Under the pieces are notes generated by a model. That model worked only from the letters and a program-made list of their open reading frames with translations, was not told the DNA's origin and made no database searches. A DNA stretch of 64,000 nucleotides, taken from NCBI GenBank assembly GCA_037893245.1, contig JBAIAA010000110.1, positions 1,054,001-1,118,000 of the forward strand, given 5' to 3'. This document shows positions 1,070 to 64,000 of the stretch, one piece after another; positions within the stretch are counted from its first letter, which is position 1, and each line of letters opens with the position of its first letter. The position numbers and the translations under genes are program-made. The stretch is from Crossaster papposus. Its lineage: Eukaryota; Echinodermata; Asteroidea; Velatida; Solasteridae.

Positions 1070-2391
1070 TTACAATTTGAGTTCTGTGTAAACACTTGGT
1101 TTCTGCTCAGCTAACTTTAGTTCCATGTACGATTCTCCAGGATTCACAATAGCTGGAAAAGCTTGACGAGTCTCCTCTGGGCTTGGAGAGTTGACAATTT
1201 CAGAGGCCGAAATATCAAAATAAATGTGTTGCACAGGATTTAAATTTTCACTTGAAGTGGAAATGTTCTGGTAACATTGTTCCTGTTGGCTAACGTCAGC
1301 AGTATGGCTCGATTGGGACTGTACCCCATCGAATACAGAATTAATGTAGGATGCATGGGGATACGTCAGGTTCTTCAAAGTGGGAGCCGCTTACTCCTTT
1401 CGACTGTCTCTTTATTACAGAATCGGTCCGCCGATTCCCAGTTCCTATGGAGCTGCCGAGATTGTTAAGGTAGGATTTGGCGTTCATCCACTTTCTTGGG
1501 TCGCAGTGACAGCAAATAGTGTGGATAGCAATCAAGATGAAGAGAGCGATTGCTCCAACGACGATACCTGCAATGACTGCTGCCGAGAGACCGACATTTG
1601 AGATCGTGGTCCCGGTTGGTATTTCTGTAGTACCTTCTGATCCACCGATTGGTTGGGTAGTAGGCAAACGCTCGACGACCAGGGAACCGATATTACAGGA
1701 TGGAGGCATCCGACCATCAGGTCTATTAGCCAAACAAAGAAAGGTTCTCCCATTGTCCGACAACATGACGTTTTTAATAAGCGACGCCCCTTGTCCTTGC
1801 GCGTTTCCTTGCATGGCCCACCCATCGTTACTCCCGTTAATTGTAGGTGTGGTTGAACCATTAGTTTGGCATTCAAGTTGACTTCCGATGACAACCAATG
1901 ATGTATCCACAGGTCTGCAAATCGGAAAGGCGTCAAATGGGTAAACTATCAGAGAAAGGGTAACTTGTGCCATAGCCTGTGTATGAACTACTTGGAAGCA
2001 CATTAATTTGTATTAAATTACATTCAATTGATCCAGTATCAGATTGTTCTATGTGACTAAAAGTCAAATTAAAAATGTACGAAGAAGAAAAAAGATCGGT
2101 TCTCTCAAATGTATACGAGTAACTCATCCGTGTACCCGGAGCATTTGCACTTGACAATGTTTCCCTTCCTCGATCAAGATTGACAGATAAAGTTATAAGG
2201 TACTGTGAAGGGTCGAAATTGTCAACACGGCAGAGGAAGCTCACCCTGTCACCTTCTCTTTGCACCTCGCTGTTGACTGGAGAGAATTCAGCTGTGATGG
2301 TTGGAACTGGCACACTAGTAGGATTTGTTGTTGCCATGCATTTCAATACCATCAAAAAGAAGAGCCAGAGGAACATTGGCAAGAGCGTCAT
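1070..2391 (-). pseudogene. Ig-like/ITAM receptor, broken by two frameshifts
   Basis: A close paralogue of the intact gene at 10630-11979. It reads in three frames: signal peptide and first Ig-like domain (2391 to about 2010), second four-cysteine domain, transmembrane segment and juxtamembrane region (about 2003 to 1341), and the tail (1378 to 1070). The first break lies at the junction of the two Ig-like domains, where this copy is about 7 bases longer than its paralogue between matching flanks. The second is a 4-base insertion near 1350 (CCCCATGCATCCTAC here, CCCCATCCTAC there). The tail still encodes YMEL and YTEL separated by nine residues, an ITAM spacing. The frames hold few other defects, so the loss is recent; assembly error is possible but would be needed twice. 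No splice sites could explain indels this small. Confidence 0.85.
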
Positions 2392-7055: not shown

Positions 7056-8720
7056 CTAATGCTTAATATCAGCATATATAGTCGGTGTCTTCGATGAAGA
7101 TTTAATCTTACCCCCTTCATCACCCCCCTGCAAATTCAAATCAGCATAAATGGCACCTTTAGGAGCAGCGTCGCCACTGGGCTCATTTGGCTCCTGTTTT
7201 GCGCCAAATTTCTGGACGTTTTTCGGTTTGGTTTGTGGTACAGGTTTTTCACTTTTGCCCGATGAGACGTTCACTGGATCTTCAGTGTTTTTTGCTGTGC
7301 TTCTTCTTGGCTTATTTACCTTAGCGTAAATTTGTGGGCTTGCTGAGTGTCTGGATGCTGCGTCGGCAGGTGTGGTCTCTCTAGTAGGCTTGTCTAGGGT
7401 CGTTCGACCACCACCAGTGGATCTGGCGGTCGCGTGGGGGACGTCAGTGGCGATTTGGACGCGAGGGTCTTTCCGAGCCGGTGGGGTTTCAACGACTGCA
7501 CCTGATGTGCTTGCGACATCAGCTGGGGCGATATTCATGTGCAAACGGAGATCGATGCTAAGGTTTAGGTTTTGCACCGTGACTGAAGGATCTGCGTAAA
7601 TGTTTGGCTCAGATTTTGATACCGGTCGGTTATCTTCAACAACGTAATGATGGATCTCACCTGAAGCCTCGAGGAGTACAGGATTATAGGCCGGGGGTGC
7701 GTCGGGTTCTTCAGGATGAGAGCCGCCCAATTCCACTTCCGACTGTCTCTCATTAGAGTTGGTCCCTTGGTTCCAAGTTCCTATGGAGCTTCCGAGATTG
7801 AGAAGGTAGGACTTGGCGTTCATCCACTTCCTTGGGTTGCAGTTACAACAGAGGGCGTGAATTGCGATCAAGATGACTAGAGCGATTGCTCCAACGACGA
7901 TACCTGCGATGTCTGCTGCAGAGAGACTGGCGTTTGAGATCGTGGTCCCGGCTGGTATTTCTGTAGTACCTTCTGATCCACCGATTGGCTGGGTAGTGAG
8001 CAGACTCTCGACGACATCCAGGGGACCGATATTGCAGGACAGAGGCATCCGACCATCAGGTCTATTAGCCAAACAAAGAAAGGTTCTCCCACTATCTGAA
8101 AACATGACGATTTTAATAAGCGATGCCCCTTGTCCTTGCGCGTTTCCTTGCATGGCCCATTCATCGTTACTCCCGTTAATTGTAGGTGTTGCTGCACCAT
8201 TGGTTTGGCATTCAAGTTGACTTCCAATGACAACCAATGATGTATCCACAGGTCTGCAAATCGGAAAGGCGTCAGGTAGGTAAACTCTCAGAAACAACGT
8301 GCGGCGTGCTAAGCCTACGAGTCCACCCCCTGAAGGCAGATTTAATAAATTACATTCAATTGATCCAGTATCAGATTGTTCTATGTGACTGAAAGTCAAA
8401 TTAAAAATGTACGAAGAAGAAAGAGGATCGGTTCTCTCAAATGTATACGAGTAACTCATCCATGTACCTGGAGCATTTCTACTTGACAATGTTTTCCTTC
8501 CTCGAGCAAGATAGACGTTTAAAGTTATAAGGTACTGTGAATTAGAGTCGAAGTTGTCAACACGGCAGAGGAAGCTCACCGTGTCACCTTCTCTTTGCAC
8601 CTCGCTGTTGACTGGAGAGAATTCAGCTGTGATGGTTGGAACTGGCACACTAGGCGTTGTTGAACTGATGCATTTCAATAACATGGCAAGAATCACCAGT
8701 GAAAGTATTGCTAGCGTCAT
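7056..8720 (-). CDS. Two-domain Ig-like receptor with ITIM/ITSM tail (554 aa)
   Basis: A type I membrane protein from a single uninterrupted frame. It has a signal peptide (residues 1-20) and a first Ig-like domain about 28-147 with C52 and C123; the usual core Trp is replaced by Leu and the F-strand reads DTGSIEC. The second domain, about 150-235, has C155, C171, C216 and C229 and ends CNIGPL. A linker leads to a membrane span about 270-290, then CCxC. The tail holds the family motif WMNAKSYLLNLGSS (299-312), a PPAY motif at 342-345, and tyrosine motifs IYADP (Y375), IYAKV (Y465), AIYADL (Y525) and TIYADI (Y549). The last fits ITSM (TxYxxI). Y525 and Y549 are 24 apart, as in ITIM/ITSM receptors that recruit SHP phosphatases. 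An inhibitory role is inferred. Residues about 22-340 are nearly identical to the gene at 10630-11979, whereas signal peptide and tail differ. Confidence 0.9.
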   Translation of the reverse strand: MTLAILSLVILAMLLKCISSTTPSVPVPTITAEFSPVNSEVQREGDTVSFLCRVDNFDSNSQYLITLNVYLARGRKTLSSRNAPGTWMSYSYTFERTDPLSSSYIFNLTFSHIEQSDTGSIECNLLNLPSGGGLVGLARRTLFLRVYLPDAFPICRPVDTSLVVIGSQLECQTNGAATPTINGSNDEWAMQGNAQGQGASLIKIVMFSDSGRTFLCLANRPDGRMPLSCNIGPLDVVESLLTTQPIGGSEGTTEIPAGTTISNASLSAADIAGIVVGAIALVILIAIHALCCNCNPRKWMNAKSYLLNLGSSIGTWNQGTNSNERQSEVELGGSHPEEPDAPPAYNPVLLEASGEIHHYVVEDNRPVSKSEPNIYADPSVTVQNLNLSIDLRLHMNIAPADVASTSGAVVETPPARKDPRVQIATDVPHATARSTGGGRTTLDKPTRETTPADAASRHSASPQIYAKVNKPRRSTAKNTEDPVNVSSGKSEKPVPQTKPKNVQKFGAKQEPNEPSGDAAPKGAIYADLNLQGGDEGGKIKSSSKTPTIYADIKH

Positions 8721-8828
8721 GGCGACGTTTTGCTGAGTAACTCCACTTAATGCAATAGTTTGATCGGCAAGCTGCAGTCACGGTATAAAAACGTTACGTT
8801 TTGTGTTGATCTGACGAACGCTCAGAGT

Positions 8829-9196
8829 TTATAGAACAGTCTTCGTTACCCCAGGCTGGGAATCTGTGGGACAGATCTGTTGGACGAGAACTGCAATACC
8901 GGTTCTCTGATGTAAAACCATAAATGACTGCATGTAAGTGTATTTTCCCACGGAGGTACGTAGTCTCGTATTCGGGCCTCCAATCGTGTATGACACGACT
9001 GAAGTGTAATTGTTGTTGTCTGGTGACACATGAATAGTCGTGACACGAACAATTTCGGGTAAAACACAATCAGGGCCCTGTATTTTTTGCAACAAGTTCC
9101 TGGTTCCTTTGATTTGAGTAACAATGTGTTCATATAAATAACACATCCCCCACATAGATGCAGCCATAATAACATAATCAAAATAGTAGTCTCCAA
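8829..9196 (-). other. Unidentified overlapping ORFs upstream of the receptor gene
   Basis: Three overlapping minus-strand frames of 91-116 codons lie 110-480 bases upstream of the receptor ATG. One contains a string of alternating hydrophobic residues (EIVRVTTIHVSP, YTSVVSYTI) suggestive of beta strands. I do not recognise a family. It may be a decayed gene, part of the receptor promoter or 5' leader, or chance. Confidence 0.2.
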
Positions 9197-9494
9197 TATT
9201 TTTATGTTGGAAATTGTTTGGGCATTTAGTTCAAGTATATTTCGACAGGTGTCACAATTACAAGAAGTGTATTTTTAAACATTCAATTTACTTACATGTT
9301 TTTGTTAATTTGTACATCCCAAATTCCAGGAGGGGTTTCCCCATTTAAACGCGTTCAATGAGCATCTGACAATGGCTGTTTCGATTCCTTTTTTTCGTAG
9401 TTTACTTTTGTGTTCTGATGTGATACTCTTAGCCCTAACAGTCCTAAATCCACCAAACTCAGTATAATTGTGTGCACACTCTAGGGAGTTAGGG

Positions 9495-9884
9495 TTAAAG
9501 GTATAGGATACACCATTTGCAGACATCAAACAATTTTACTACTGAATTATTAAAAAATATCTTACTTATTTTGAAAGTAAGTAATAATTCTAGGCATTGA
9601 GCACAATTATTGCGCTAGATATCCAGTAATTGTTCTGAAAAACCAAATTGAAAAGTAAAAAACACGATCGTCTAATGGCGATGGCGAAAAAAACCAAGAA
9701 CAACACAAGAACCACTGCCTGTCGCCGGTTGAAAATGAACGCCGTTTTTGTTGCCTGTCTAAGCATACAGGATAGTAAAACTTTGGACAGGTCAGTTAAA
9801 CGATATTTATTATAAAATACAACCCCACAAATTCACCCATTCATGATAATTCAAACAATTACCAATGGTGTATCCTACCTTTAA
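9495..9884. mobile_element. MITE-like repeat, copy 2 (complete)
   Basis: It starts TTAAAGGTATAGGATACACC and ends GGTGTATCCTACCTTTAA, which are imperfect inverted complements. The element is 390 bp with no coding capacity. TTAA at both outer ends could be part of the termini or a TTAA target duplication of piggyBac type; I cannot separate these from one copy. Its right half matches the element at 1-322. Confidence 0.65.
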
Positions 9885-10629
9885 AGGTTTTTTTCTATGT
9901 TTTAATATATACATAAAAACTGTCATAATCATAATAGTTGGACTGTATAAGTAAATATATGTATCATGTATCGTGTAATTATAGTCTTAAGCATCCTGCA
10001 AAAAAAATGGCACCCGGTGTACGTGCTGTAATTTGTCAATAAAAGTTGAATTTTGTATCAGTTTCAATCGATTGCAGTTTGCAATTGGTTGCACATCTAC
10101 GAATGGGTGCCAGCAGGTCTGGTTCCCTAACCTGATGATCACAGACGTCTATACGTTTCTGTCTCGTCTTAAGTAGGGTCACAGAGCCAGACAATACAAG
10201 AACAGGAGTTACTGTGCTTGACTTGATTTTTTCAGCATCTATGAACACAAAAAAATGTAAACGGTTCGGTGTTACGATATCCTTGCAGGAAAATACTAAC
10301 CCCAATTAATTCTATCCATTTACACACAAAAACAAAGGAAAAAGAAAACAGCAAAATCAAATGTTGTATAACCTAAATAGATGCGAATTCACTGACGTGT
10401 TGGAGCCCCAGAAAACACAATGATTCTGTTGACGATGATGACAAGTGCGACAATTTGTCACCAATAATTATTCATAAGAGCTTTGAAAATCACCAATATT
10501 ATTTGAGAATATGTAATGGCAATGTAATCGTTACAGAAATATAAACTAATTACTTGCATATTATTTGGTATGACATTTTGAATGCAGGTATAAACAACAA
10601 ATAATGTAGGTTTACCTCAAAGAGGCAAC
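9885..10629. other. Intergenic, no gene seen; 3' flank of the ITAM-type receptor
   Basis: AT-rich sequence duplicated at 323-1069. The 89-codon minus ORF here is not open over the same length in the other copy and is not called. Confidence 0.55.
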
Positions 10630-11979
10630 TTACAATTTCAGTTCTGTGTAAAGACTTGGTTTCTGCTCAGCTAAGTTCAGTTCCATGTACGATTCTCCAG
10701 GATTCACAATGGCTGGAGATGCTCGACGAGTCTCATCTAGGCTTGGAGAGTTGACAATTTCATAAACCGAAATATCAACATTGTCAGAGTTACTATATTC
10801 TAGTGGTTCTTTTGTAAAACAAGTGTGCTGCACAGGATTCAAATTTTCCCTTGAAGTGGAAATGTTCTGGTAACATTGTTCCTGTTGGCTAACGTCAGCA
10901 GTATGGCTCGATTGAGACTGTACCCCATCAAATACAGAATTAATGTAGGATGGGGATACGTCAGGTTCTTCAAGGTGGGAGCCGCTTACTCCTTTAGACT
11001 GTCTCTTTATTACAGAATCGGTCCGCCGATTCCAAGTTCCTATGGAGCTGCCGAGATTGTTAAGGTAGGATTTGGCGTTCATCCACTTTCTTGGGTCGCA
11101 GTGACAGCAAATAGTGTGGACAGCAATCAAGATGAAGAGAGCGATTGCTCCAACGACGATACCTGAAACGGCCGCTGCCGAGAGACCGGCGTTTGAGATC
11201 GTGGTCCCGGCTGGTATTTCTGTAGTACCTTCTGATCGACCGATTGGTTGGGTAGTGGGCAGACTCTCGACGACATCCAGGGGACCGATATTGCAGGACA
11301 GAGGCATCCGACCATCAGTTTGATTAGCCAAACAAACAAAGGTCCTCCCATTGTCCGACAACATGACGTTTTTAATAAGCGACGCCCCTTGTCCTTGTGC
11401 GTTTCCTTGCATGGCCCATCCATCGTTACTCCCGTTAATTGTAGGCGTTGCTGCACCATTGGTTTGGCATTCAAGTTGACTTCCAATGACAACCAATGAT
11501 GTATCCACAGGTCTGCAAATCGGAAAGGCGTCAGGTGGGTAAACTTTCAGAAACAACCAGAGGCGTGCTAAGCCTATGGAACTACCCCCTGAAGACAGAT
11601 TTAATAAATTACATTCAATTGATCCAGTATCAGATTGTGCTATGTGACTGAAAGTCAAATTAAAAATGTATAAAGAAGAAAGAGGATCAGTTCGCTCAAA
11701 TGTATAGGAGTAACTCATCCGTGTATCTGGAGCATTTCTACTTGACAATGTATACCTTCCTTGATCAAGATGGACGTTTAAAGTTATAAGGTGCTGTGAA
11801 GAGTCGAAGTTGTCAACACGGCAGAGGAAGCTCACCGTGTCACCTTCTCTTTGCACCTCGCTGTTGACTGGAGAGAATTCAGCTGTGATGGTTGGAACTG
11901 GCACACTAGGAGTTGTTGTTGCCATGCATTTTAATACCATCAACAAGAAGATCTGAAGGAACATTGGCAAGAGCGTCAT
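10630..11979 (-). CDS. Two-domain Ig-like receptor with ITAM-type tail (449 aa)
   Basis: A type I membrane protein in one exon. The signal peptide is about 1-20. The first Ig-like domain is about 29-147 (C53, C123, no core Trp). The second domain is about 150-235 with C155, C171, C216, C229 and the CNIGPL end. The membrane span is about 270-290, followed by CCHC and WMNAKSYLNNLGSS. The tail contains YQNI (Y370), SVYEIV (Y406) and, at the extreme C-terminus, Y431-MEL and Y444-TEL separated by nine residues. That fits the ITAM rule YxxL/I-x(6-12)-YxxL/I, which recruits tandem-SH2 kinases of the Syk type. An activating role is inferred. The ectodomain and span are nearly identical to the ITIM/ITSM gene at 7056-8720. 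A broken twin lies at 1070-2391. Confidence 0.9.
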   Translation of the reverse strand: MTLLPMFLQIFLLMVLKCMATTTPSVPVPTITAEFSPVNSEVQREGDTVSFLCRVDNFDSSQHLITLNVHLDQGRYTLSSRNAPDTRMSYSYTFERTDPLSSLYIFNLTFSHIAQSDTGSIECNLLNLSSGGSSIGLARLWLFLKVYPPDAFPICRPVDTSLVVIGSQLECQTNGAATPTINGSNDGWAMQGNAQGQGASLIKNVMLSDNGRTFVCLANQTDGRMPLSCNIGPLDVVESLPTTQPIGRSEGTTEIPAGTTISNAGLSAAAVSGIVVGAIALFILIAVHTICCHCDPRKWMNAKSYLNNLGSSIGTWNRRTDSVIKRQSKGVSGSHLEEPDVSPSYINSVFDGVQSQSSHTADVSQQEQCYQNISTSRENLNPVQHTCFTKEPLEYSNSDNVDISVYEIVNSPSLDETRRASPAIVNPGESYMELNLAEQKPSLYTELKL

Positions 11980-12552
11980 GATGAATCGTAGCTCCTAAAT
12001 TCAACTCCCAACTGGCAGAAACCAAAGCAATCTTGGTTAAATACCGGCTTCTAATTCCGCGTTTGTATATTGAACGGCAAAGTTTAAATTCACTATAAAG
12101 CAACTGCCTCTTGTACAAAACAACTTCTGTTGACTATTTTTTTAGAAAGCACACGGTCGTATAAACTTCAACAGTGGTGTTTCTCTGTGTGTCCCATGTC
12201 TGTGTGCCTCACATGAGTTGAACCACGAAGCCCCGGTTGAACCTAGTATTTGACTCGAACTAACCCATGTTTATATTGGCGCATTGAATGAACACAATAG
12301 AAATTGAAATTGAGTTATAATATAGCTAAAAAAGCTTCACTCTTAATTGCATTCATCAAGATATTGCGGCGTTAAATCGGGACGTCTGATAAAGTGATAA
12401 TACCATTTACATGCAGGAATAAACTTGCACCGACCGCCTGAGCCTTGAAGTTATTTTGAGTTGAAGCTATTTTACTCAAACGTTAGCCTTTCACCAAGGC
12501 AACCGTGACCTTTAACGGGAGACAAGAGCGGGAAAGCGACAAAGCGACTGAA

Positions 12553-12729
12553 ATGGAGGCCACTCAACACCATGGTCTCCACTCTAGTCTCTTCGCAATT
12601 TCGCTTCTTTGTCCATCCGGGTATTATTGCACGATTGCCTTGGCTGCTATTATCAAGTTTAAAATTCAATCACAATTTCCTGAAAAATGGTCGCACAAAA
12701 TAGAAGTTATAACCGCAGTGCATGTGTAG
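12553..12729 (+). pseudogene. Signal-peptide-like ORF, duplicate of 4812-4949
   Basis: A 58-residue frame beginning ATGGAGGCC with a hydrophobic core (LFAISLLCPSGYYCTIALA). It continues past the stop seen in the other copy and ends VITAVHV. No Ig cysteines follow. Same interpretation and doubts as the first copy; retention of the frame in both duplicates is weak evidence that it once mattered. Confidence 0.3.
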
Positions 12730-13167
12730 TTTATTTTCCAAATAACATATATTTTACTAAAACTTATAAAATAATTGTATGGGTTTATATACAGTGGATA
12801 TTGTTTTGTATAATCCCCGGGTTTATATGACTATTAAGGGAGGCGTCTTGTGTAAATATTTCGACACGAAGTCGTTCTTCCCAATTCGATTTGTGTATAG
12901 GCCTACTTGGGTTTTGTGGCAAAACTGCTGTGATTTTTGAATTTTGATATACTATTACAGCTGCATTTCTTAATATTCACAATCAAATCAAGTCTACAAA
13001 GAGAAATACTAAACAAGTAGCCGGTCAATGATAACCCATTTTATACAGAAGAACGAATTTCTTTATAATTGTTTAATTACCAAATCGTTGAATCACCCTC
13101 ACTGTCTTACGAAATTAGAGAGAGAAACAAATAACATTTGTATATTCACAGAGATATGTTTATAGTG

Positions 13168-13375
13168 TTTCAGTTCGGTGTAAACACTTGGTTGGTGCTC
13201 TGCTCCTTTAAGATCCATTTGCGAGCCTTCTGAATACAACGAGACGTGCGGGGCCCAGTCCAAGACCTGTTAGCGGCAGTCTTGTGTCCTCTGATCCATG
13301 CAGTCCCGGGGCTATTGACAATCTCGTAAGCCAGACTGTCGCAACTTGAAGTATCACTGCCCATATTGGACATCT
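13168..13375 (-). pseudogene. Relic of a receptor cytoplasmic tail (ITAM end), copy 2
   Basis: One minus-strand frame begins with AYEIVNSPG, matching VYEIVNSPS in the tail of the receptor at 10630-11979. After a frameshift another frame gives QMDLKGAEHQPSVYTELK, matching its ITAM end with the first Tyr changed to Gln. There is no upstream ectodomain. The sister relic at 5449-5660 has His at the same place. Confidence 0.6.
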
Positions 13376-13381
13376 CTGTGG

Positions 13382-14109
13382 TTAAATAAGTGGGCTGAAC
13401 TTGAATGAAAACGGCAAGGTATAGTCAGAGTGACTGTCAGCCGTTGAGAGAAAGTTGTGAATGTTAGTTGACCCGTCAACGTAAGTCGGTCGGATAAGGC
13501 GTCGGTCATCACCAAGAAAGCTCTTTTTCTAGTCGTTTACCCAGTCGCTTTTCCGTTCGATTCTGCTCAGGTTCCTTTTTACTCGGCGACGTTAACGAAT
13601 CACAGGAATCACAAGTCGCCAGATGCGGCTGAGATGGAAGCGAAAACACAGGATGGTACGGGTTTAATATGACCAGGGGAGCCAACTCACAGATGACGAT
13701 GGCTACGAGAACATCGACTGTCGGCCATTGCCATTACTCCTATTCGTCCTAGTCGTGAAAATTGTAGATATATTTAATTAAATAATCTGTGTATAATTAT
13801 ACATTTAATCTTATGGCGAAAATTAACACCGGAGAAACAAGAATATACAAATTCTGACAACACCAAGTCGAAACTTTCACTAGAAATTGACAAGACAAAT
13901 TGACAACTAACATGCAACAATGACTGTTGTCCTCACAGTACATGTACAATATAATCGCTACGTATTTAATATGTCATGTGTTCTATTGACAAATTGAAAA
14001 TCTAACCAACTAAAATAAGTGTCACCAATAGGCGGTTTTCCATCGACGATTTACGGTGATTTGCGTGGAGTATGTTTTGATTTTATGGTGTCAAATTTTC
14101 GTGAATATT
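13382..14109. other. Intergenic, no gene seen; 3' flank of the next receptor
   Basis: Here the two segmental duplication copies diverge. A plus-strand stretch at 13692-13718 would read DDDGYENID in one frame, but it is short, ends soon after and has no start. AT-rich from 13760. Confidence 0.5.
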
Positions 14110-15162
14110 CTAAATTGGATTTACGCCGCTTTTTGGCGTGTCATAGCTGGGGTTGCCAATCCTGCTCTGGTAGATGTGGGGCCCTTCTTTGCGGTCATGT
14201 TTCTGGTCGGCAGAGGCACAGGTGCAGAAACCGATGAGCCGTCGGCACCTGCTAGAGTCGAATCGACAGCAGAGGATGTTGACAAGAACGAGTATGGCGA
14301 GTATCACAAAACCAGTGACCGCGACTATGATTGCGGGTGTACATGTGTGTTCTCCACTCATTGACGGTGTCGTAACGGTTGGTGAACCTTTCGATTCAAC
14401 TGTTGTGGGGTTAATCTGCGTGGTCATATGTTCCTTCCCCGGCACTCTGACGGTAAGAGGACCAATACTACAGGACAGATTCTTGGAAGAGGCATCTATC
14501 GCAGCAACACAGTTAAATGTTTCCCCATCGTCGGTGGATGATACATTTTTTGTAAGATCTTGTCCCTGCTGCCAAACCTGATGGATCCATCTACCATCAC
14601 TGTCGGTAATCGCTGGGACTGCTTCGCCAGCTGTTCGACAACGAATTTCAGTGTCGATGTCGACTTCAGCTTCACCACTCGGGCTGCAGGTGGGAAAGGC
14701 TTCGACAGAGTAGACCCCTAGAGTCAGGTCGGTCTGCAGTACCGTATGGAAGGTACTGCCACCTGTATCTCTCTCGAGAAGGTCGCACCTGTAAGTACCA
14801 GCATCCGACTGGTTGACCAGACCGATGGTCAAATTGAATACAAAGACAGGTGGCGATGTGTAGTTGTGTTGACTTATGACATACCGCTCGGCACTCACCT
14901 CCATCTCTTTGGATGAAACAATGAACATGATGAACGGTGTTCTTCTTGTCCAGGAAACAACGTGTCTGTCCATGTCGACATTGAAGGCATTACATAGGAG
15001 ACTTACACTGACACCATCCTTCTGCGCCTCACTGTTAATAGGGTAAAACTTCGCGGATATCGTAGGTTGTGCCGTAGGTGCTGGAGTGCTAAAGCACAAC
15101 ACCTGACGGACAGCAAAGACGGCATAAAGCAGCAGTAACTGAAAAATCGTGTATGATTTCAT
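14110..15162 (-). CDS. Two-domain Ig-like receptor with short motif-poor tail (350 aa)
   Basis: The first ATG in the frame is at 15162 (MKSYTIFQLLLL); the frame is open 12 bases further but without ATG. Signal peptide about 1-24. The first domain is about 33-150, a more canonical V/I-type Ig fold with C57, W71 and DAGTYRC ending at C126. The second domain is about 155-238 with C159, C175, C218, C231 and the end CSIGPL. A Ser/Thr-rich stalk runs about 243-274 and the membrane span about 276-297, followed by CC and a Cys/Arg-rich stretch. The 50-residue tail holds only HIYQSRI and PSYDTP, neither fitting ITIM, ITAM or ITSM. It may signal through a partner or act as a decoy or adhesion form; no charged residue sits in the span. 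A TATAAA lies about 125 bases upstream. Confidence 0.88.
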   Translation of the reverse strand: MKSYTIFQLLLLYAVFAVRQVLCFSTPAPTAQPTISAKFYPINSEAQKDGVSVSLLCNAFNVDMDRHVVSWTRRTPFIMFIVSSKEMEVSAERYVISQHNYTSPPVFVFNLTIGLVNQSDAGTYRCDLLERDTGGSTFHTVLQTDLTLGVYSVEAFPTCSPSGEAEVDIDTEIRCRTAGEAVPAITDSDGRWIHQVWQQGQDLTKNVSSTDDGETFNCVAAIDASSKNLSCSIGPLTVRVPGKEHMTTQINPTTVESKGSPTVTTPSMSGEHTCTPAIIVAVTGFVILAILVLVNILCCRFDSSRCRRLIGFCTCASADQKHDRKEGPHIYQSRIGNPSYDTPKSGVNPI

Positions 15163-15287
15163 TCTGCAGTTCACGTTGTATGAAACGGTTGAACGATGTC
15201 ATCAACAAGTTGTTAAGATTTTAATGCTGACACATACAAGTTGGGCCTATAGCTTTAAAAGTGTGCAATCGACCGAATATCCTCGTG

Positions 15288-16167: not shown

Positions 16168-17766
16168 TTAACGTTTAATTTCCGCATATTCTGTCCAGGG
16201 CTCTTTCGGTGACTTGACACTGTTCTGATTTTCCGGAAGGTCCAACTCGGCGTACACAATCACCGGATCTGGTTTGGGTGGGGACGCGGCTTTCTCCACC
16301 TTCCCTTTCCTGTTCAGAGCAAACCTCTTGATTTTCTTGGAAATTTTCCCCGCTCCGGAATCTTCGCAGGTGGTTACAGAATGCGGCGAACACCTTGCAG
16401 CTTTGTTCACCTTCGCGTAGATCACAGAGGGGTCTTTTTTGAGTTCGTTCGCGTCCGTTGTATCAGAGGCGGGACGGTCCGAGCCAAGAGGTTTATCCAT
16501 CTTTCCTTTGCGGTTGATGGCGAACCGTTTGATCTTCTTCGGCTTGGGGCCTGCATCAGAATCTCCCCCAGTGTTTGGCTTGACTGGGGAAACCTTTGCA
16601 TTATCATATATCGGGTAGATCTTGTCGCCTGGGTTCGAGACGGACGGGCTGATCACACCTTGCTCGGGCTGGTCAGGCGCCAGCTTATGAAGTTCAGAAG
16701 TACATGTAGCAGGTGGATCTCGTTCGTCTACTACAAGTGAATCGCCAACAGTCCCTACTTGTTTATTGCCTGCCACTGACTCGTACGCCGGCGGCACGTT
16801 GTCGCTGGCAAGCTGAGAACTGCCCATATCCACAGAGTTTGGTGAATCTGGTGCCGAGTCGTCTCGACGGTTCGAGGTTCCGAAGGAGCTGCTGCCGATG
16901 TCGAGGAGGTATGACTTGGCTCGCATCCATCTCTGCGGGGTGCAGCGACAGCACAGAAAATGCAGGGCAATAATGACGAGGATGAAAATAGAGCCGATCA
17001 CAATTCCAGCGATGTCAGCTGAAGAGAGACCACCGCTCACGTCATCTGTAATCACAGTCAGGGGGCCAATCTTACAAGAAAATGCCATTGGTGAGTTTCT
17101 ATAAAGTGCGAAACAGTTAAAAGTTGTTCCATTGTCCGAGGCGTTTACCGTGTGACTGAGTTCTGTGCCCGCGTTACTCGCAAACCAACCTGAAGCCTCA
17201 AAAGGCATTCCTGTTAATGTCACAAAGGGGACTTTTGACTCTTTCACAGTTCTGCAAGAAAGGGTGCTGCCGACGACCACTGCATCCTGGCCATAAGGGG
17301 AGCAAACTGGAAACTCGTCACCTGGGTAAACCGTCAGTATCTGTGAAGCCGATTCACGAGCTACCGCTATACAACTGTACGAAGCCTCGTCACTTTTTCG
17401 TAGAGCCTGGATTGTTACTCTCTGAGAAAACACCAAACTCGTTTCACTGACGACACGAGTTATGATGTCCAAAGTGAACCGATCATCAGCGTTTGAATTA
17501 AGTCCTGTTTCGTCGACGAATATCGTTGGTATTCCAGATGTCGAATTCGTTTTCTGCCAGACGATTACTTCAGGTGGTGTAGGGGATGCAACTCGGCAGT
17601 GAAGGGTGACGCTGTCCCCTTCCCGTGGCTTATCTGTTCTTTCGGGTATGATGGTTAGATTTACTCCTTGACTCGACACAGAGGCTGGGTGGCTCAGCAA
17701 AATCATCATAACTATTTTGAAAACGACAACCAGGAGAGTCGGTGCATCGCAGCGTGGATACATCAT
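16168..17766 (-). CDS. Two-domain Ig-like receptor with ITIM, ITSM and PPxY tail (532 aa)
   Basis: The frame is open to 17955 but the first ATG is at 17766, with a second directly after. Signal peptide about 1-33. First Ig-like domain about 35-147 with C57, W70 and SYSC (C132). Second domain about 150-237 with C155, C171, C218, C231 and CKIGPL. Membrane span about 250-270, then CCRC and WMRAKSYLLDIGSS. The tail has PPAY (325-328), KIYPIY (Y384, Y387), VIYAKV (Y450), IVYAEL (Y505) and TEYAEI (Y527). The last two form an ITIM plus ITSM pair 22 residues apart; TEYAEI is close to the PD-1 ITSM (TEYATI). A polybasic segment KKIKRFAxNRKGK occurs twice (410-422 and 477-489). Inhibitory signalling through SHP-type phosphatases is inferred. 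A TGACGTCA lies about 330 bases upstream. Confidence 0.88.
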   Translation of the reverse strand: MMYPRCDAPTLLVVVFKIVMMILLSHPASVSSQGVNLTIIPERTDKPREGDSVTLHCRVASPTPPEVIVWQKTNSTSGIPTIFVDETGLNSNADDRFTLDIITRVVSETSLVFSQRVTIQALRKSDEASYSCIAVARESASQILTVYPGDEFPVCSPYGQDAVVVGSTLSCRTVKESKVPFVTLTGMPFEASGWFASNAGTELSHTVNASDNGTTFNCFALYRNSPMAFSCKIGPLTVITDDVSGGLSSADIAGIVIGSIFILVIIALHFLCCRCTPQRWMRAKSYLLDIGSSSFGTSNRRDDSAPDSPNSVDMGSSQLASDNVPPAYESVAGNKQVGTVGDSLVVDERDPPATCTSELHKLAPDQPEQGVISPSVSNPGDKIYPIYDNAKVSPVKPNTGGDSDAGPKPKKIKRFAINRKGKMDKPLGSDRPASDTTDANELKKDPSVIYAKVNKAARCSPHSVTTCEDSGAGKISKKIKRFALNRKGKVEKAASPPKPDPVIVYAELDLPENQNSVKSPKEPWTEYAEIKR

Positions 17767-18831
17767 TGTAGGCCTATACACGATGGTCGCAGCCAGAAAA
17801 GCCCAAAAGAAACTAGTCAACTTCGCAATCGAACAAGAGTTGTTTACTGTAACTACCAGTCGCAAGACTGGAGTCCCAAAATTCCGAAGAAAATTCCGGA
17901 TAAAATAAGGCGAATGATGTTTGAGGTAAAGATCCAAAACCTGTAATAAAAACACTGCTTACAGACTTCCAGTACAAGCTACATGTAAGTTGTAGTACCA
18001 AATACAACGTATAGGCTACATATGATATAGATCGATACAATGAACTGCACAGCTCAACTAACCCTGACCAACACTCCCTTTTAACAACAGTGCGTGACGT
18101 CAGAGTAACCCACCATTTAATTCCAGTCTGATCGTTTGCCACGCTTCAACACAATATCTTATTGCATTCTTATCCCAATACTTGCCCGGTTAGGTCTTTT
18201 GTCAATATTTAAAACCGCTGGCAGTGCTTCAATGAAGCGAGTACTTGAATTAGTTTGCAAGGTTAATACGTCGGCGCTGCCATTGTAGTGTTACCTTGAC
18301 CTAAACCCACGCGAATCTGTAAACATGGATATAGATATGAATATAGAATCTTAGCCGTGCTAGATAAATTAAAAAAAAACGAAAAAAACATTCTGTTTTG
18401 CTTTATCATAATGTTCAATAATGTAGGTCATGCTACATGTAACGTCATACAGGTCAGGCATCCCAACCAAAACAACCGAACAAGTGTCTTTCTTACGTTT
18501 TCATATATTTTTTCTCTTCACATTTTAACACTGCACATAAATGGCACACATGCGGTTACATGTTAAATACAGCGTCACGTGACCACAACAATGCGATTGT
18601 GTAAACAAGTTTGACATGGTTTAAAGCCGATGCAAGTACAAACACTATCTTTGTACCACAGATACCCATGTAAACTACATTGAGCTAAACGGTGACATTT
18701 AAAAGCATGGATGTGGAAATACGTAAAGATTTTCAGATAATTTCGGGTGATTAATGATCATTCAACTTACAGAAAAAATACAAATAGGCCTATGGGAGTA
18801 ATTTAACGATTACAAATGTTCTCTAGAAATT
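17767..18831. other. Upstream region of the receptor and intergenic DNA, no gene seen
   Basis: Contains TAGGCCTA octamers at 17769 and 18785 and one TGACGTCA at 18095. The ORFs at 17813-18142 (minus) and 18357-18566 (plus) show no recognisable content. Confidence 0.5.
18095..18102. promoter_or_regulatory. Perfect CRE palindrome TGACGTCA
   Basis: The consensus site of CREB/ATF-type factors, about 330 bases upstream of the receptor ATG at 17766, where a promoter would be expected. A second copy at 25960-25967 is not close to any gene, so the site may be chance. Confidence 0.25.
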
Positions 18832-28556: not shown

Positions 28557-29456
28557 TTAAGAGCACAGCAAGCAAAATATTACAAGGGCAAGAAGACTTA
28601 TGAAGCTCAAGGTGAACGAAGGAGCTCTAGACGCAGTAAGTGGTCCAATTTCACAGGTGAATGGTTTGTCACCGTGCTCAGCGTCCGTTGGAATAGACCA
28701 GCAATCGAATGTCAACCCAACGTCGCTGATCGTCACTGACTTCTTCATTTCTGTGCCGGCTCCTCCGTCCCTCCGAAGCCCCATCTCCCAACTCTCAGCA
28801 GCGACGGTGATAGCTCCCCTTTGGTTGATGACAGGAAACCGGTCTTTGGTCAGGGTGCCGCAGTAGATGTTGTCCCCTTCCACCAATGGCGACTGACCGT
28901 TTGGGTAGCAAACAGGGAACAACTCTGGTAGGTACACAGTGAGGAGGGCCTCTCCATATGCCACTGTCTTGGTGAGCGCGCCGTCTGGGAGATTCTCAGT
29001 GGCGTTGGTGTTAATCAGTTGGCAACGATAGACGCTCTCGTCACTTTCCTGCACTGGGTTGATTACCAGACGCTGAACGTAAGCAGAGGTGACTGCTGTC
29101 ACCCCTGCTGAGTGCTTCTGGACCAAAAGGTGAATCCTACTGATAAACAACCGGTGATCGACGGATTTGTGAAGAGCGCCATTCGAGGCAATCACGGTCT
29201 CCCTCACCGATCCCTTGTCAAATCGGGTCCATTTGACGATGTGAGCAGCCTCAGAATATCCCACGATGTCGCAGCGGAGAATGACCATATCTCCCTCCCT
29301 GGGATCCGGTGTGCTCTCAGGGACGATCGAAAGAGACACGGTTGGTGCCGATCCGTCGACAAAATCCGGGCCGAAAATCGGCATTGGCACGGCGGCGCTG
29401 AGCAGCACCGCGACGCAGAGGGTACAAACAATTGCCATGGCGTTAACGCGCACCAT
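28557..29456 (-). CDS. Two-domain Ig-like protein, probably GPI-anchored (299 aa)
   Basis: Signal peptide about 1-25 (an in-frame Met at 7 is an alternative start). First Ig-like domain about 38-176 with C62, W76 and SVYRC (C145). Second domain about 178-275 with C183, C199, C252, C268 and CEIGPL. After the second domain come TASRAPS and a hydrophobic run from about 281 to the last residue 299, with no basic stop-transfer sequence and no cytoplasmic tail. That is the pattern of a GPI-attachment signal. Family resemblance is closest to the gene at 42163-43092 (both have KWTRFD/TWTRFD and a CWS after the third cysteine of domain two). It would be a surface receptor without its own signalling motifs, or a shed competitor for the same ligands. 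An uncleaved short C-terminal anchor is the alternative. Confidence 0.85.
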   Translation of the reverse strand: MVRVNAMAIVCTLCVAVLLSAAVPMPIFGPDFVDGSAPTVSLSIVPESTPDPREGDMVILRCDIVGYSEAAHIVKWTRFDKGSVRETVIASNGALHKSVDHRLFISRIHLLVQKHSAGVTAVTSAYVQRLVINPVQESDESVYRCQLINTNATENLPDGALTKTVAYGEALLTVYLPELFPVCYPNGQSPLVEGDNIYCGTLTKDRFPVINQRGAITVAAESWEMGLRRDGGAGTEMKKSVTISDVGLTFDCWSIPTDAEHGDKPFTCEIGPLTASRAPSFTLSFISLLALVIFCLLCS

Positions 29457-42162: not shown

Positions 42163-43092
42163 CTACGCCCTTGATGATTTGCAGCAACAGCAGCACATGC
42201 AGGCGATAAAAATGACCAACACGACCACGAAAGCACCGGCAGCGATGCCAACGATCGCCCCTACTGATAACGCCTTTGAGGCTGGCGGTTTGGTGCCCCC
42301 TACCACCCGAGGGGCGAGAGGGCAAGATAATGCCAGCTCCCCCACGGCGAAGCCGGTCGAGAACGACCAGCAGTCGAACACGGTTCCGTCGTCTGTGGCG
42401 TTGACATTTCGTGTCAGCTCCCATCCTGGTCTCCCGTCCCTGCGTGGACCTTTTGGCCAGCCCTCAAGATCGCCTGCTGGATTCCCCCGTCTGGTGACCA
42501 CGGGGATACGGGACTTGACCAGAGTACCACAGGACAAGATGTCACCAAGGACGAGAGGGTCTTTCGACGAAGCACTCGGAGCGCAGACCGGGAAGATTTC
42601 CGGGGAGTACACAGTCAGAGCCAGCTCTCTTGAAGCGACTGTCTCGGTGCCGCAAAGGGCGGTGCCGTTGTCGGTGCTCAACTCGACATTACAGCGGTAC
42701 AGCCCCTCGTCCGATTCGCTAACGGGGTCGATGACGAGTCGCTGGTGGACGTTACCTCGGTGGGATGCATTTGAGGCCTGGACCCGAGACACCAGAATCC
42801 GCTGATCGGCAGGTGCTTTCAGCGTACCGCCTTTCGCCAGCACGACCCAAGACGCCGAGCTTGAATCGAACCGAGTCCAAGTCACAACGTGGGCGGATTC
42901 CATGTAATCCCGTATATCGCACTGGAATTTCACAGCTCCGCCTTCCACTGGTACGGCAGTCTCGGAACCAGATTCAACCTTCAGGAACATTGTCAGCGTT
43001 TTGTCTGGGTCTTGAATGGGGTTGGAACCAACGGGTCTTGCTGCCAGACTAACAAGCACTACACAGAACATCACCAAAGCAGACAGTGCCAT
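42163..43092 (-). CDS. Two-domain Ig-like receptor with Cys-rich stub tail (309 aa)
   Basis: Signal peptide about 1-22. First Ig-like domain about 33-162 with C58, W72 and GLYRC (C134), plus an extra C147. Second domain about 164-262 with C170, C188, C241 and C257; the usual CxIGPL end is altered to CPLAPRV. A short linker leads to a membrane span about 276-298. The tail is only about ten residues: C298, then five consecutive Cys (300-304) and KSSRA. The run of cysteines suggests dense palmitoylation and raft association. There are no signalling motifs, so it would act through partners or as a decoy. Nearest relative here is the GPI-type gene at 28557-29456; the two differ mainly in anchor. 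A minus-strand TATAAA lies at 43310-43315. Confidence 0.88.
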   Translation of the reverse strand: MALSALVMFCVVLVSLAARPVGSNPIQDPDKTLTMFLKVESGSETAVPVEGGAVKFQCDIRDYMESAHVVTWTRFDSSSASWVVLAKGGTLKAPADQRILVSRVQASNASHRGNVHQRLVIDPVSESDEGLYRCNVELSTDNGTALCGTETVASRELALTVYSPEIFPVCAPSASSKDPLVLGDILSCGTLVKSRIPVVTRRGNPAGDLEGWPKGPRRDGRPGWELTRNVNATDDGTVFDCWSFSTGFAVGELALSCPLAPRVVGGTKPPASKALSVGAIVGIAAGAFVVVLVIFIACMCCCCCKSSRA

Positions 43093-53216: not shown

Positions 53217-54707
53217 CTATTTTAAATTAGCTAACTCGGCATAAACTGTCGGTTCCTCCTTAGGAACTGGCTTCTTGTTTTTGCCGTCTGGATGGTTAAC
53301 TAAATCCAGCTCTGCGTAAACGAGTTCATCTTCCATTGAAGCAATGTCCGAAGCTCGGGGGGCGTTTCGCTGGACGGCCGCGTACTGGGCCGGATCCGTG
53401 GTTGTCTCCCTTGAATCTTTGAGTTTGTTGACGGCAGCATAGTGAGGTGGCTCGGTGTCCTGCCCCTGTCTACTCTTTCGGTCTTTGTTGACCGATGCGT
53501 ACTGTACCGGTTGTGCACCTTGCTTGCTGGGAACCTCGTGTTCATTGTGAACGGTGGCGTAGATTCTTCCTTCATGAGGTTCTTCCGGGGCCACTTTACC
53601 CCTTCCTGGTTGAACAGAGGTATAGACCACAGGTGCTTGTTCGGACGGCTGTTGCTTTCTCGCAGCGTGGGGTACCGGTTTATGAGGGGTTGTCTTGCCG
53701 TTTTCTGCCTGACGCTTCTCGGGAGGTGGCGACGAGACGCCGTTGGGAGTTGGTTTGTCTTGATCTGTGTCCAAGGGTCGTAGTCTCCCTTTCCGACGGT
53801 GGAGAATAAAGGAAAGGATAACGATGACAACGATGATGAGTAAGATGGCGATTACAATGGCGACAACGATCGAGGCGCTAATGGCAGCAGGTGACACCGT
53901 CGTGGAAGACTCCGTCTGATCATAGACGGTCCGCTGGCGAGTCGAGGAGGCAGCGGTAGTTGGAAGAAAAACGGACAGTGGTCCAATCTGGCAATCCAAT
54001 GTCACATCGGGGAAGTCCGCAGCGATGGAGGAACAGTTGAATGTCGCGCCATTGTCCGCGGTGGTGACCAATGCAGTCAGCCGCGAGCGGGGACCGGGAT
54101 CAAGCGGCCTGGTCACCCAGTCCTCCGGTGCTCCATTCCCGTTGACGACGAGTGCGGTGGTGTTAGCTGCGGCGGTACAAGAAATCGAGCTCCCCTCCGA
54201 CAAAGATGCCGCACCGCTCGGCGAACAAGAAGGAAAGATCCAAGCAGGATACACGGTCAGGACAGTCTGTACACTGGAGACGACTGAGTAGCTGTTACCG
54301 TTTTTCAATTCCAAGACTCGGCAGGTGTACATTCCGTTGTGGTGTTGACTGGCGGGATTGACCACCACGCTGTGGACCTCGGGCTCAGTCGAAGGCTCGC
54401 TTGTGGTGTTGTTGGCCACAGTGTAAGCAGGGTCAGTTATACGGCTGTCCAGCATGCCCTGCCAGGTAAGGATCCTAGCTTTGTCTGGAAAAACCGCCAC
54501 CCAGCTCAAGGAATGCACGCTAGACTGGAAGCCGAAGACCTCACAGCGTAGCGTTACCGCATCCCCCTCCCGGGGCTCAGAGGTGAACTCCGGCAGGATG
54601 CTGACGGTTGTAGTCTGGGAGGAGACCAGTACAGTCCCAAGCGTTAAGACGATGCAGCTCAAGAAACACATATACAAAGCAGCAACACTCAGCGAAGCAT
54701 GGGCCAT
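53217..54707 (-). CDS. Two-domain Ig-like receptor with seven tyrosine motifs (496 aa)
   Basis: Signal peptide about 1-30. First Ig-like domain about 32-153 with C55, W69 and GMYTC (C129). Second domain about 155-246 with C161, C177, C225, C239 and CQIGPL. A short Thr/Ser stalk leads to a long membrane span about 276-302. The 190-residue tail carries seven motifs: VYTSV (Y362), IYATV (Y383), QYASV (Y403), HYAAV (Y423), QYAAV (Y442), VYAEL (Y464) and TVYAEL (Y489), 19 to 25 residues apart. Y362, Y403 and Y464 satisfy the ITIM rule [IVLS]xYxx[LIV]; Y489 is ITSM-like (TxYxxL). No pair has ITAM spacing. The tail looks built by repetition of a roughly 20-residue YAxV unit. A multi-docking inhibitory or scaffold role is inferred. 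Ectodomain closest to the gene at 57093-58136. Confidence 0.92.
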   Translation of the reverse strand: MAHASLSVAALYMCFLSCIVLTLGTVLVSSQTTTVSILPEFTSEPREGDAVTLRCEVFGFQSSVHSLSWVAVFPDKARILTWQGMLDSRITDPAYTVANNTTSEPSTEPEVHSVVVNPASQHHNGMYTCRVLELKNGNSYSVVSSVQTVLTVYPAWIFPSCSPSGAASLSEGSSISCTAAANTTALVVNGNGAPEDWVTRPLDPGPRSRLTALVTTADNGATFNCSSIAADFPDVTLDCQIGPLSVFLPTTAASSTRQRTVYDQTESSTTVSPAAISASIVVAIVIAILLIIVVIVILSFILHRRKGRLRPLDTDQDKPTPNGVSSPPPEKRQAENGKTTPHKPVPHAARKQQPSEQAPVVYTSVQPGRGKVAPEEPHEGRIYATVHNEHEVPSKQGAQPVQYASVNKDRKSRQGQDTEPPHYAAVNKLKDSRETTTDPAQYAAVQRNAPRASDIASMEDELVYAELDLVNHPDGKNKKPVPKEEPTVYAELANLK

Positions 54708-57092: not shown

Positions 57093-58136
57093 TTACGTTG
57101 TTTCTGCGTCTGCTTTATGATACCCCGTCATCTCAGTCTCCGAAGTGCGTTTGTGTTTTCTACTTTCCCTCACCAGTGCAACGACGGTGACGATACACAC
57201 TGTAATTACGAGAATGACGAGGATGGCGGTGAGGGCACGGGAGGTGGCTGGTGGCCGATGCTTGGGGTATTCGTTAGGTTGGAGGGTGAAACCGGTATCT
57301 TCCGGAGTAGGAGCAACTCCTGGACTAGCAGTAACATCAGGTGTTTTGGATTCAGAGGGTGGCATTGTTGTAATGTCCCGACATGGAGATTCCGTGGTTG
57401 TTGGCGAAGAGGGTACAGATAGCGGTCCGATCAGGCAAGTGAAGGGTAGACCGAGATAATCGGCTGCGACGGATGAACAGTTGTAAGTCTGACCATCGTC
57501 GGTGGAAGAGACTGTTGAAGTCAGTCGTACGGGTAGGCTTGGCTCCTCCCTGGTCCAATTTACCTGGGTGTTATTTATGGTAGTGTGGACAAAAGCACTT
57601 GTGTTTACCGTGCAGGACATTGGGCTACACACGGGGACCTCTGCCGCACCGCTTGGGGAGCAGGATGGGAAGACTTGTGAGGGGTAAACGGCCAAACGCA
57701 CCTGTTCAGCGGCAAGGATGACATTGTTGCCCTCCAACAGATCAAATTGCATTACTCTGCAAGTGTAAGTTCCAGTGTGATTTGTCTTTGTGCGATTGAT
57801 GACCAGAGTATGTTCTGCGAAACTAAAGCCGGTGTTGTTAACCACGGAGTACTGCGGGTCGGCGATCTGGGCGCGGTAGCTCATGCCAAACCACGTCAAC
57901 TTCTGTGGCGTGGCCGATTCTCCGAGGAGCCCTGTCCAGCTCAAGAACATCGTCGACCATCGATCGAAGCTGTTCACCAGGCAGTGAAGTTTCACAACCT
58001 CCCCCTCTCGCACTTGGGAGGCGGGCTGTGGTTCAACGTTAATGGTCACACTCTGACCAAGGACTGGTACCACGGAGGATAGGACGATGATTAGGCACGT
58101 GCGAGAAAAGCTTCGAAGAACCGCTACACGGGCCAT
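57093..58136 (-). CDS. Two-domain Ig-like receptor with mucin-like stalk, short tail (347 aa)
   Basis: First ATG at 58136 (MARVAVLRSF); the frame runs 13 codons further 5' without ATG. Signal peptide about 1-27. First Ig-like domain about 29-151 with C52, W67 and GTYTC (C126). Second domain about 153-240 with C159, C175, C220, C234 and CLIGPL, plus an extra C170. Six or more N-x-S/T sequons. A Thr/Ser/Pro-rich stalk of about 60 residues (241-300) should carry O-glycans. Membrane span about 301-322. The 25-residue tail has one tyrosine (TGYHK) in no known motif. The ectodomain pairs with the neighbour at 53217-54707 (shared FPSCSPSGAA and YNCSS/FNCSS with AAD), which has the long motif array. 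They may be an effector and a non-signalling partner for related ligands. A minus-strand TATAAAAA lies near 58475. Confidence 0.88.
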   Translation of the reverse strand: MARVAVLRSFSRTCLIIVLSSVVPVLGQSVTINVEPQPASQVREGEVVKLHCLVNSFDRWSTMFLSWTGLLGESATPQKLTWFGMSYRAQIADPQYSVVNNTGFSFAEHTLVINRTKTNHTGTYTCRVMQFDLLEGNNVILAAEQVRLAVYPSQVFPSCSPSGAAEVPVCSPMSCTVNTSAFVHTTINNTQVNWTREEPSLPVRLTSTVSSTDDGQTYNCSSVAADYLGLPFTCLIGPLSVPSSPTTTESPCRDITTMPPSESKTPDVTASPGVAPTPEDTGFTLQPNEYPKHRPPATSRALTAILVILVITVCIVTVVALVRESRKHKRTSETEMTGYHKADAETT

Positions 58137-63782: not shown

Positions 63783-64000
63783 TTATGTCCCGATCAGGGA
63801 CTCGTACTGATTTGTGTTTTCTAGATTGAAATCCCCGTAAATCATAAAGTTATTCGGCAGCGTAACGTGCTTGCTAGCATCAGTTAGACTTCCGATCACA
63901 TTGCTGTACTTCTGTCGGTTGTTCTTCCCCGCGGCGCTCTTGTAGCACGGGATTGTCCTGCTCCGGTCGTCATCTGCCTCGTAGAGGCTATTGACCACTG
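63783..64000 (-). mobile_element. Non-LTR retrotransposon endonuclease fragment (runs off window)
   Basis: The minus-strand frame contains NFMIYGDFNLENTNQYESL. MxxGDFN is the conserved motif of the exonuclease-endonuclease-phosphatase domain of LINE-type elements. The preceding residues (SLTDASKHVTLPN) fit the usual spacing. The 5' end lies outside the window and the frame stops at 63783, soon after the motif, so this copy is probably truncated. Confidence 0.45.

Follow-up and report, generated by a model that had tools for sequence, protein, structure and literature searches.

In the paired receptors described in PMC3533184, the activating members have a short tail and a charged residue in the membrane span. 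The ligand-binding domains of CEACAM1 and of its partners with an immunoreceptor tyrosine-based activation motif (ITAM) are kept alike by gene conversion and recombination (PMC2832619), and the extracellular part of Siglec-11 and Siglec-16 has been homogenised by repeated gene conversion, in which a nonfunctional allele has served as donor (PMC5701461). The FcoR genes of Botryllus encode clustered immunoglobulin (Ig) receptors in which tails with an immunoreceptor tyrosine-based inhibitory motif (ITIM) or a half-ITAM (hemITAM) are exchanged on one receptor type (PMC12065747), and the passages of PMC11999971 that describe an oyster Ig receptor with an ITAM mention no echinoderm receptor. Here we describe two neighbouring genes, A and B, in a stretch of 64,000 nucleotides (the window) from the sea star Crossaster papposus, which corresponds to positions 1054001-1118000 of contig JBAIAA010000110.1 (C110) in assembly GCA_037893245.1; genome searches covered 1.02 Gb in 1,841 contigs, and positions are those of the window unless given for a contig. 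The two genes carry nearly the same ectodomain on different tails, and we favour, with moderate confidence, the reading that they form an invertebrate paired-receptor set within a cluster of single-exon Ig-superfamily genes, with a proposed mode of working through SHP-type phosphatases and Syk-type kinases.

Gene A (7056..8720, 554 aa) and gene B (10630..11979, 449 aa) are uninterrupted single-exon open reading frames (ORFs) on the minus strand. Their products begin with a hydrophobic stretch, followed by two Ig-type domains, a single membrane span and a tail with tyrosines. The span of A covers approximately residues 274-292 and its tail 262 aa. The predicted arrangement is like that of CEACAM1, CEACAM3 and their mammalian equivalents, in which an inhibitory member with an ITIM and an immunoreceptor tyrosine-based switch motif (ITSM) stands beside one that has its own ITAM-like tail and needs no adaptor, in a family that also has glycosylphosphatidylinositol (GPI)-anchored members (PMC2832619). 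The CEACAM genes are vertebrate and multi-exon, with signalling motifs on separate cytoplasmic exons and conversion borders that may fall in introns, whereas the coding part of the genes described here is free of introns and their sequences showed no specific kinship to CEACAM. Siglec-11 and Siglec-16 are an inhibitory and an activating member with a converted extracellular part (PMC5701461), roles that for A and B are predicted, but Siglecs are multi-exon sialic-acid lectins. The locus has the small-gene-cluster organisation of paired receptors, and it shares with KIR, LILR, SIRP and PIR a cluster in which common ectodomains are combined with unlike tails. The Alr genes of Hydractinia have introns. 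They are comparable by description, as clustered invertebrate Ig receptors with ITAM and ITIM motifs (PMC12065747). The activating members of KIR, LILR, SIRP and PIR are short-tailed with a charged membrane residue (PMC3533184), whereas the tail of B has 162 residues and its span no Lys or Arg. FcoR receptors combine a sushi domain with three Ig domains (one V-type, two C2) and swap motifs by alternative splicing (PMC12065747), in contrast to two Ig domains and to conversion and crossover between intron-free genes here; A and B do not show the FcoR architecture, as Pfam gives Ig-type matches only and the structural model contains two Ig folds. Among the papers listed from the open-licence PMC literature, none reports echinoderm paired receptors or intronless Ig clusters with ITIM or ITAM motifs, which is weak evidence of novelty.

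The original prediction held that A and B are nearly identical from about residue 22 to residue 340, with different signal peptides and unrelated tails. The shared DNA block is real and spans 7677-8684 in A and 10933-11940 in B, with 89.25% identity over 1,014 columns. In the base-by-base comparison that had been proposed, identity in 50-bp windows rises from background (23/47) to 42/50 at a point just within the signal peptide. From there as far as 7884 every window scores 41-50 of 50 (one 46/47), after which identity passes through 37/50 and 45/50 in the membrane part to 25/50, 35/47 and background in the tail. Beyond the ectodomain, which is 89% identical in amino acids, identity is 80% for residues 263-292, 87% for residues 293-320 and 56% for residues 321-345. 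Synonymous divergence (dS), compared inside and outside the block as had also been proposed, is far from even along the gene. Over the 241 codons of the ectodomain it is 0.079, against 1.61 over the 20 codons of the signal peptide and 0.49 over the 58 of the transmembrane-juxtamembrane part, and the tail is saturated. Synonymous changes number 13 at about 174 sites in the ectodomain against 15 at about 42 sites in the transmembrane-juxtamembrane part (p 1.3e-5). The signal peptide, the membrane-juxtamembrane part and the tail of A and B thus carry old divergence, and the mature ectodomain is nearly common. The recently homogenised part is narrower than predicted and consists of residues 21-262, the whole mature ectodomain (7935..8660 in A and 11194..11916 in B, both minus strand). 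The signal peptides are distinct. The distal tails are of different classes, but the juxtamembrane parts are homologous (z 29.8 for A against B), and both are also homologous to that of gene E, a related receptor in the same cluster.

Copies of A and B, named A' and C, lie 9.5 kb away from the originals, and the unit A'-C adjoins the unit A-B. A' (contig 1051566-1053229, just left of the window) was found by genome search as a 93% full-length copy of A, and C (1073..2391, minus strand) is a broken copy of B, with its frame cut between ORFs of 157 and 223 aa and again in the tail. The right part of the duplicated unit (9526..13395) matches 1-2729 at 87.4% and 4555-5675 at 91.6%, the first of these corresponding to 9526-12300 and the second to 12294-13395; in contig coordinates, 1050685-1056729 matches 1060177-1066300 at 89.7%. 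The A'-C side also has a tandem array at 2804-4498, in which a 20-bp unit rich in the palindrome TACGTACG is repeated approximately 87 times. As a genome query A matched four places, every one on C110, and no further copy in the assembly.

In a four-way alignment of A, A', B and C, the grouping of A with A' and of B with C (AA'|BC) is supported by all 67 informative sites in residues 1-20 and 263-345 and by all 77 in residues 346-420, whereas within residues 21-262 it is supported by one site of 13, against eight for AB|A'C and four for AC|A'B (Fisher p 2e-13 for the ectodomain against the sites outside it up to residue 345). Distance-based quartet bootstrapping gave AA'|BC in 1000/1000 replicates for the signal peptide, the transmembrane-juxtamembrane part and residues 321-345, and in 0/1000 for the ectodomain, where the physical neighbours A-B and A'-C were paired in 940/1000. 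AA'|BC thus holds at every informative site outside the ectodomain and at one of 13 within it, which amounts to gene conversion limited to the ectodomain; there AA'|BC is strongly rejected, and the pairing of neighbours is weaker. The ectodomain dS between A and B is not above that between A and A' outside the ectodomain (0.094-0.208), which places the exchange approximately as recently as the duplication or allelic split. In A and B low dS is restricted to the ectodomain and the phylogeny switches at its borders, as in receptor pairs maintained by conversion in the CEACAM and Siglec-11/16 mode. Two origins had been offered in the original prediction, conversion limited to the ectodomain and recombination at the juxtamembrane sequence; dS, site splits and quartets point to the first. 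The second is not borne out, as the conversion border lies at the start of the stalk or membrane part (residue ~262), the homology of the transmembrane-juxtamembrane parts is older and the change of tail class comes only beyond them.

The protein identity profile by itself would also permit a recent duplication followed by ordinary divergence, with the ectodomain under constraint, fast-changing tails and no conversion. That explanation was rejected because ectodomain dS is so far below that of the adjoining segment and because the tree order of the ectodomain contradicts that of the tail, and we hold it to be extremely improbable. Several points do weigh against the conversion account as given above. 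Informative ectodomain sites number only 13, the pairing of A with B leans largely on six of them in residues 129-142, the quartet bootstrap for domain 2 plus stalk was tied in 370/1000 replicates, and A'-C may represent the other haplotype set in tandem rather than a duplicate. The ectodomain splits are also not clustered beyond chance (runs p 0.69), so that clustering gives no signal of a second conversion event. With these points weighed, the alignments make it very likely that the ectodomain is kept common by conversion and that the other parts are of two kinds.

A second case is found in the left flank of the window in K (contig 1043946-1045382), L (1041340-1042674) and M (1038868-1040061), which have a common ectodomain (K against M 89.2% over 731 columns). 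K and M are unlike in their 5' ends, in their membrane parts (juxtamembrane z 0.4) and in their tails (z 1.2). L is a hybrid of the two: it is the same as M over 600 bp or more of upstream DNA, across the signal peptide and into the ectodomain, is a mosaic within the ectodomain and is the same as K from the stalk onward, including the tail and 3' flank. The duplicated stretch, in which 1039355-1042676 corresponds to 1041968-1045259, has both ends within ectodomains, as an unequal crossover through the ectodomains would give. Recombination through the ectodomain has here fused one gene's front with another's tail. The tail of M has an A-like proximal half and lacks a YxxL/I/V pair, and M may be a signalling-dead or decoy partner of K, as predicted from that tail.

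The tails behave as coding sequence. The only gaps between the coding sequences of A and A' are of 3 and 3 bases, against 14 and 12 gaps in the flanks that are mostly not multiples of 3, and the frame is kept along approximately 700 bp of the A/A' tail; between K and L the tail is free of gaps, whereas the 3' flank has 12. The synonymous excess in the A/A' tail is borderline (one-sided p 0.056). This conservation of frame rules out chance reading frames, and the original prediction's own caveat, that the tails might belong to other frames, is not borne out by the gap patterns. An alternative in which the tails are not translated as read, the ectodomain exon being spliced across undetected introns to different 3' exons, is very improbable on the same evidence; in addition, the same C-terminal motifs recur in divergent members and, among the matches listed genome-wide, all except the broken C lie in open frames of at least 309 aa. 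The single-exon description applies to the coding part, and introns are possible in the untranslated parts of the cluster genes.

The tail of A ends in IYADL...TIYADI, an ITIM-like/ITSM-like pair with tyrosines 24 apart, and by strict consensus it contains one ITSM (TIYADI) and no perfect ITIM, the near-ITIMs being AIYADL and QIYAKV; the related E has two strict ITIMs. The tail of B ends in YMEL-x9-YTEL, an ITAM-spaced pair with a spacing slightly over x6-8 and within x6-12, and between the end of the span and the C-terminus it contains five YxN tyrosines. Both kinds of ending recur. A, A', E and H end in YA[ED]L ... YA[ED][IL] with tyrosines 24, 24, 22 and 25 apart, respectively, whereas B and J end in YM[ED]L-x9-Y[TV]EL and K and L in YMEL-x8-YTEL, with tyrosines 12-13 apart. 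The A and E endings may resemble the tails of vertebrate SIRP-alpha and Siglecs. In 5,000 shuffles of each tail, the number with an ITAM-spaced pair anywhere and the number with one at the C-terminus were 103 and 6 for B, 80 and 3 for J, 54 and 4 for K, and 30 and 1 for L, K and L not being independent. A PPAY element, presumably a WW-ligand of the PPxY type, is present in the tails of A (in the region of 7680-7690) and E, with SPSY at that place in B.

The juxtamembrane parts of A, A', E, M and B form one class and those of K, L and D another, with J akin to both and H to neither, while the distal tails group A, E and H (z 4.9-5.4) on one side and B with J (6.7) and K (4.3) on the other; the z of 4.0 between A and B is owed to the proximal stretch. 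With a juxtamembrane part of the A class and a distal tail like those of J and K, the tail of B is itself likely a composite. Used to query the genome, it gave 6 matches, all of them in C, A', A and E.

The predicted tail endings are thus both present, but a division of roles between them meets several difficulties. B has two strict ITIMs and A has none; the ITAM-type distal tails of J and K have a z of only 1.7 although each resembles B; and none of the 17 membrane spans predicted for cluster members has an Arg or Lys, whereas activators of the Siglec-16 type use DAP12 through a charged membrane residue (PMC2832619). In a rival reading A and B are both inhibitory or both dual and unlike only in strength or partner, the tail of B is a rearranged ITIM tail rather than an ITAM, and sharing of the ectodomain serves maintenance of dosage or specificity. 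The strict ITIMs of B are SVYEIV (Y406) and SLYTEL (Y444), and Y406 stands 25 residues before the next YxxL tyrosine, Y431, a spacing like that of the pairs in A, E and H; YxxL is compatible with either an ITIM or an ITAM, and the juxtamembrane part of B is of the A class. Set against this, the short-spaced C-terminal pair is also found in J, K and L despite very different proximal tails, B lacks the PPAY element of A, and the tail classes have been held apart by selection or distance although the transmembrane-juxtamembrane parts (80-87% alike) are still convertible. We consider the reading of A and B as both inhibitory or both dual rather unlikely. It is fairly probable, judging from the tail motifs, that A and B differ in signalling output, and opposite signalling of the two tail types is plausible; for the specific assignment of A as inhibitory and B as activating the chances appear evenly balanced. 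The prediction of an activating and inhibitory pair stands in its common ectodomain on unlike distal tails, and its assignment of the activating and inhibitory roles is putative, given the uncharged spans and the ITIMs of B.

The sequences show that conversion between neighbours holds the ligand-binding ectodomain of A and B in common and that the signal peptide, membrane part and tail stay outside the exchange and remain of two kinds. In the mechanism that we propose, A and B would bind the same or a similar ligand on immune-type cells. The tandem YxxL/YxxI tyrosines of A may recruit an SHP-type phosphatase with tandem SH2 domains and so dampen the response, and the ITAM-spaced pair of B, together with Grb2-type YxN sites, may recruit a Syk-type kinase with tandem SH2 domains and lead to activation, or signal in either direction. 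Matches in the order SH2-SH2-phosphatase are found on the minus strand of contig C580 (101748-101900, 100756-100923, 94737-94883 and 94113-94277) and in the order SH2-SH2-kinase on contigs C121, C704 and C150, of which C121 and C704 are perhaps two haplotypes of one gene; these matches are compatible with SHP-type and Syk- or Shark-type genes.

The Pfam matches of A and B are to general Ig models only and fall under the curated cut-off, which some relatives pass, namely D (V-set), E (Ig_3 and ig) and H (ig). The AlphaFold2 model of the A ectodomain, with an alignment of eight window members as input, shows two beta sandwiches (predicted local distance difference test score 78.5, predicted template modelling score 0.66). 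Among those eight members 19 ectodomain columns are invariant, including six cysteines, four of which are in domain 2. The best single PDB match was Robo2 (E 0.0044). The 50 matches listed by a Foldseek search with the model were generic and of the antibody kind, with query TM-scores of 0.30-0.37, so the search points to an Ig fold and nothing more specific. Kinship to KIR, LILR, SIRP, PIR, Siglec or CEACAM beyond generic Ig similarity was not found in Pfam, the PDB profile search or Foldseek. Membership in the four families named first, to which the pair had been likened in the original prediction, is not supported, and descent from any named vertebrate receptor family was rejected, the matches being generic Ig and mostly antibodies. 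A hypervariable FG-type loop was likewise rejected as a general feature: 5 of 7 positions differ among A, A' and B, whereas K, L and M differ at only 1 of the 7. Nonsynonymous divergence (dN) exceeds dS in single windows, with a ratio of 2.69 for A-A' residues 61-100 and of 9.7 for A-B residues 128-150, where the denominator is half a synonymous change, and does not do so in others (for example 0.80 for A-A' residues 128-150), and positive selection is not claimed from these ratios.

An ectodomain profile searched against contig positions 854001-1198000 matched 18 of 4,074 ORFs of at least 40 aa at E ≤0.01, all on the minus strand. Two of these are the halves of C, which leaves 17 loci, and N, missed by the profile and matched with H as query, makes 18 single-exon Ig-receptor loci, which occupy approximately 100 kb (contig 1026798-1126770) on that strand. 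Nine lie inside the window, together with the end of Q. D (14110..15174) has a short tail without YxxL/I/V, and E (16168..17955), whose likely start Met is residue 64 or 65 of the ORF, has an A-class tail (VIYAKV, IVYAEL, TEYAEI). F (28557..29456) ends in a hydrophobic stretch with no tail and appears GPI-anchor-like, G (42163..43092) has an 11-residue Cys-rich tail, H (53217..54707) has a tail with seven YxxL/V tyrosines that ends in LVYAEL...TVYAEL, and I (57093..58175) has a 25-residue tail. Q (63783..64000) is the 3' end of a three-Ig member that runs on to contig position 1119735, and N (contig 1026798-1029794, 998 aa) has a very long TPPA repeat stalk between its Ig domains and membrane span. 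Genome-wide searches with single proteins, with 47 candidates scored in each, gave at least 30 and at least 33 matches on 16 contigs, counts that are lower bounds, with more clusters on contig C6. The genes might instead encode adhesion or fertilisation receptors, with paired ectodomains for cell-cell recognition, since YxxL/V tails also occur on Ig adhesion proteins and fast-changing ectodomain loops would also suit reproductive proteins. The mix of ITIM/ITSM, ITAM-spaced, tail-less and GPI-like members is, however, the make-up of immune clusters such as the CEA family as described in PMC2832619, and we regard a non-immune role as unlikely.

Elsewhere in the window, an open frame at 39617-40615 (plus strand) has a membrane span at its start, a long acidic tail and no Pfam match. 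A dispersed repeat is common to 37771-38051, 27031-27384, 9497-9885 and 1-322, with two 84-bp direct copies at 37783-37948, and Rfam gives a weak tRNA match at 18831-18902 (minus strand; 31.9 bits, gathering threshold 29) for which ARAGORN made no call. In the assembly, the mitochondrial COX1 on contig C1841 (16,330 bp) reads TGA as Trp at 13 codons, places 6 of its 7 AAA codons where mammalian COX1 has Asn, and has ATA at positions of the Ile/Leu type. AAA for Asn belongs to the code of echinoderms and flatworms (table 9) and is reported for some hemichordates; taken with the strong, deuterostome-like COX1, it points to an echinoderm. On contig C8, of more than 5 Mb, a 682-aa frame that lacks TGA gives a COX1 match of 490.8 bits, and this is possibly a bacterial contig.

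Vertebrate receptor pairs maintained by gene conversion of the ectodomain are already known, and what is new here is a single-exon, apparently echinoderm version in which conversion is bounded by the ectodomain. As there are no introns in the coding part, the sharp borders at the signal peptide and membrane span do not derive from intron positions, and selection or old tail divergence sets them. The pair looks to have been built independently of the vertebrate ones. We suggest tentatively, as a reading somewhat less likely to be right than wrong, that single-exon paired receptors arose in echinoderms apart from vertebrates and that the ectodomain is a mobile cassette, in which conversion and unequal crossover deal ligand specificities anew to outputs of the inhibitory, activating, tail-less and GPI type; one and the same homology would then keep partners alike and build new combinations in one step, as in gene L. 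If the two tail types do signal oppositely, a counterbalance of the vertebrate type would have arisen on at least one occasion outside vertebrates, through the same genetic route. With their simple structure these genes also offer a setting in which the forces that maintain paired receptors can be tested.

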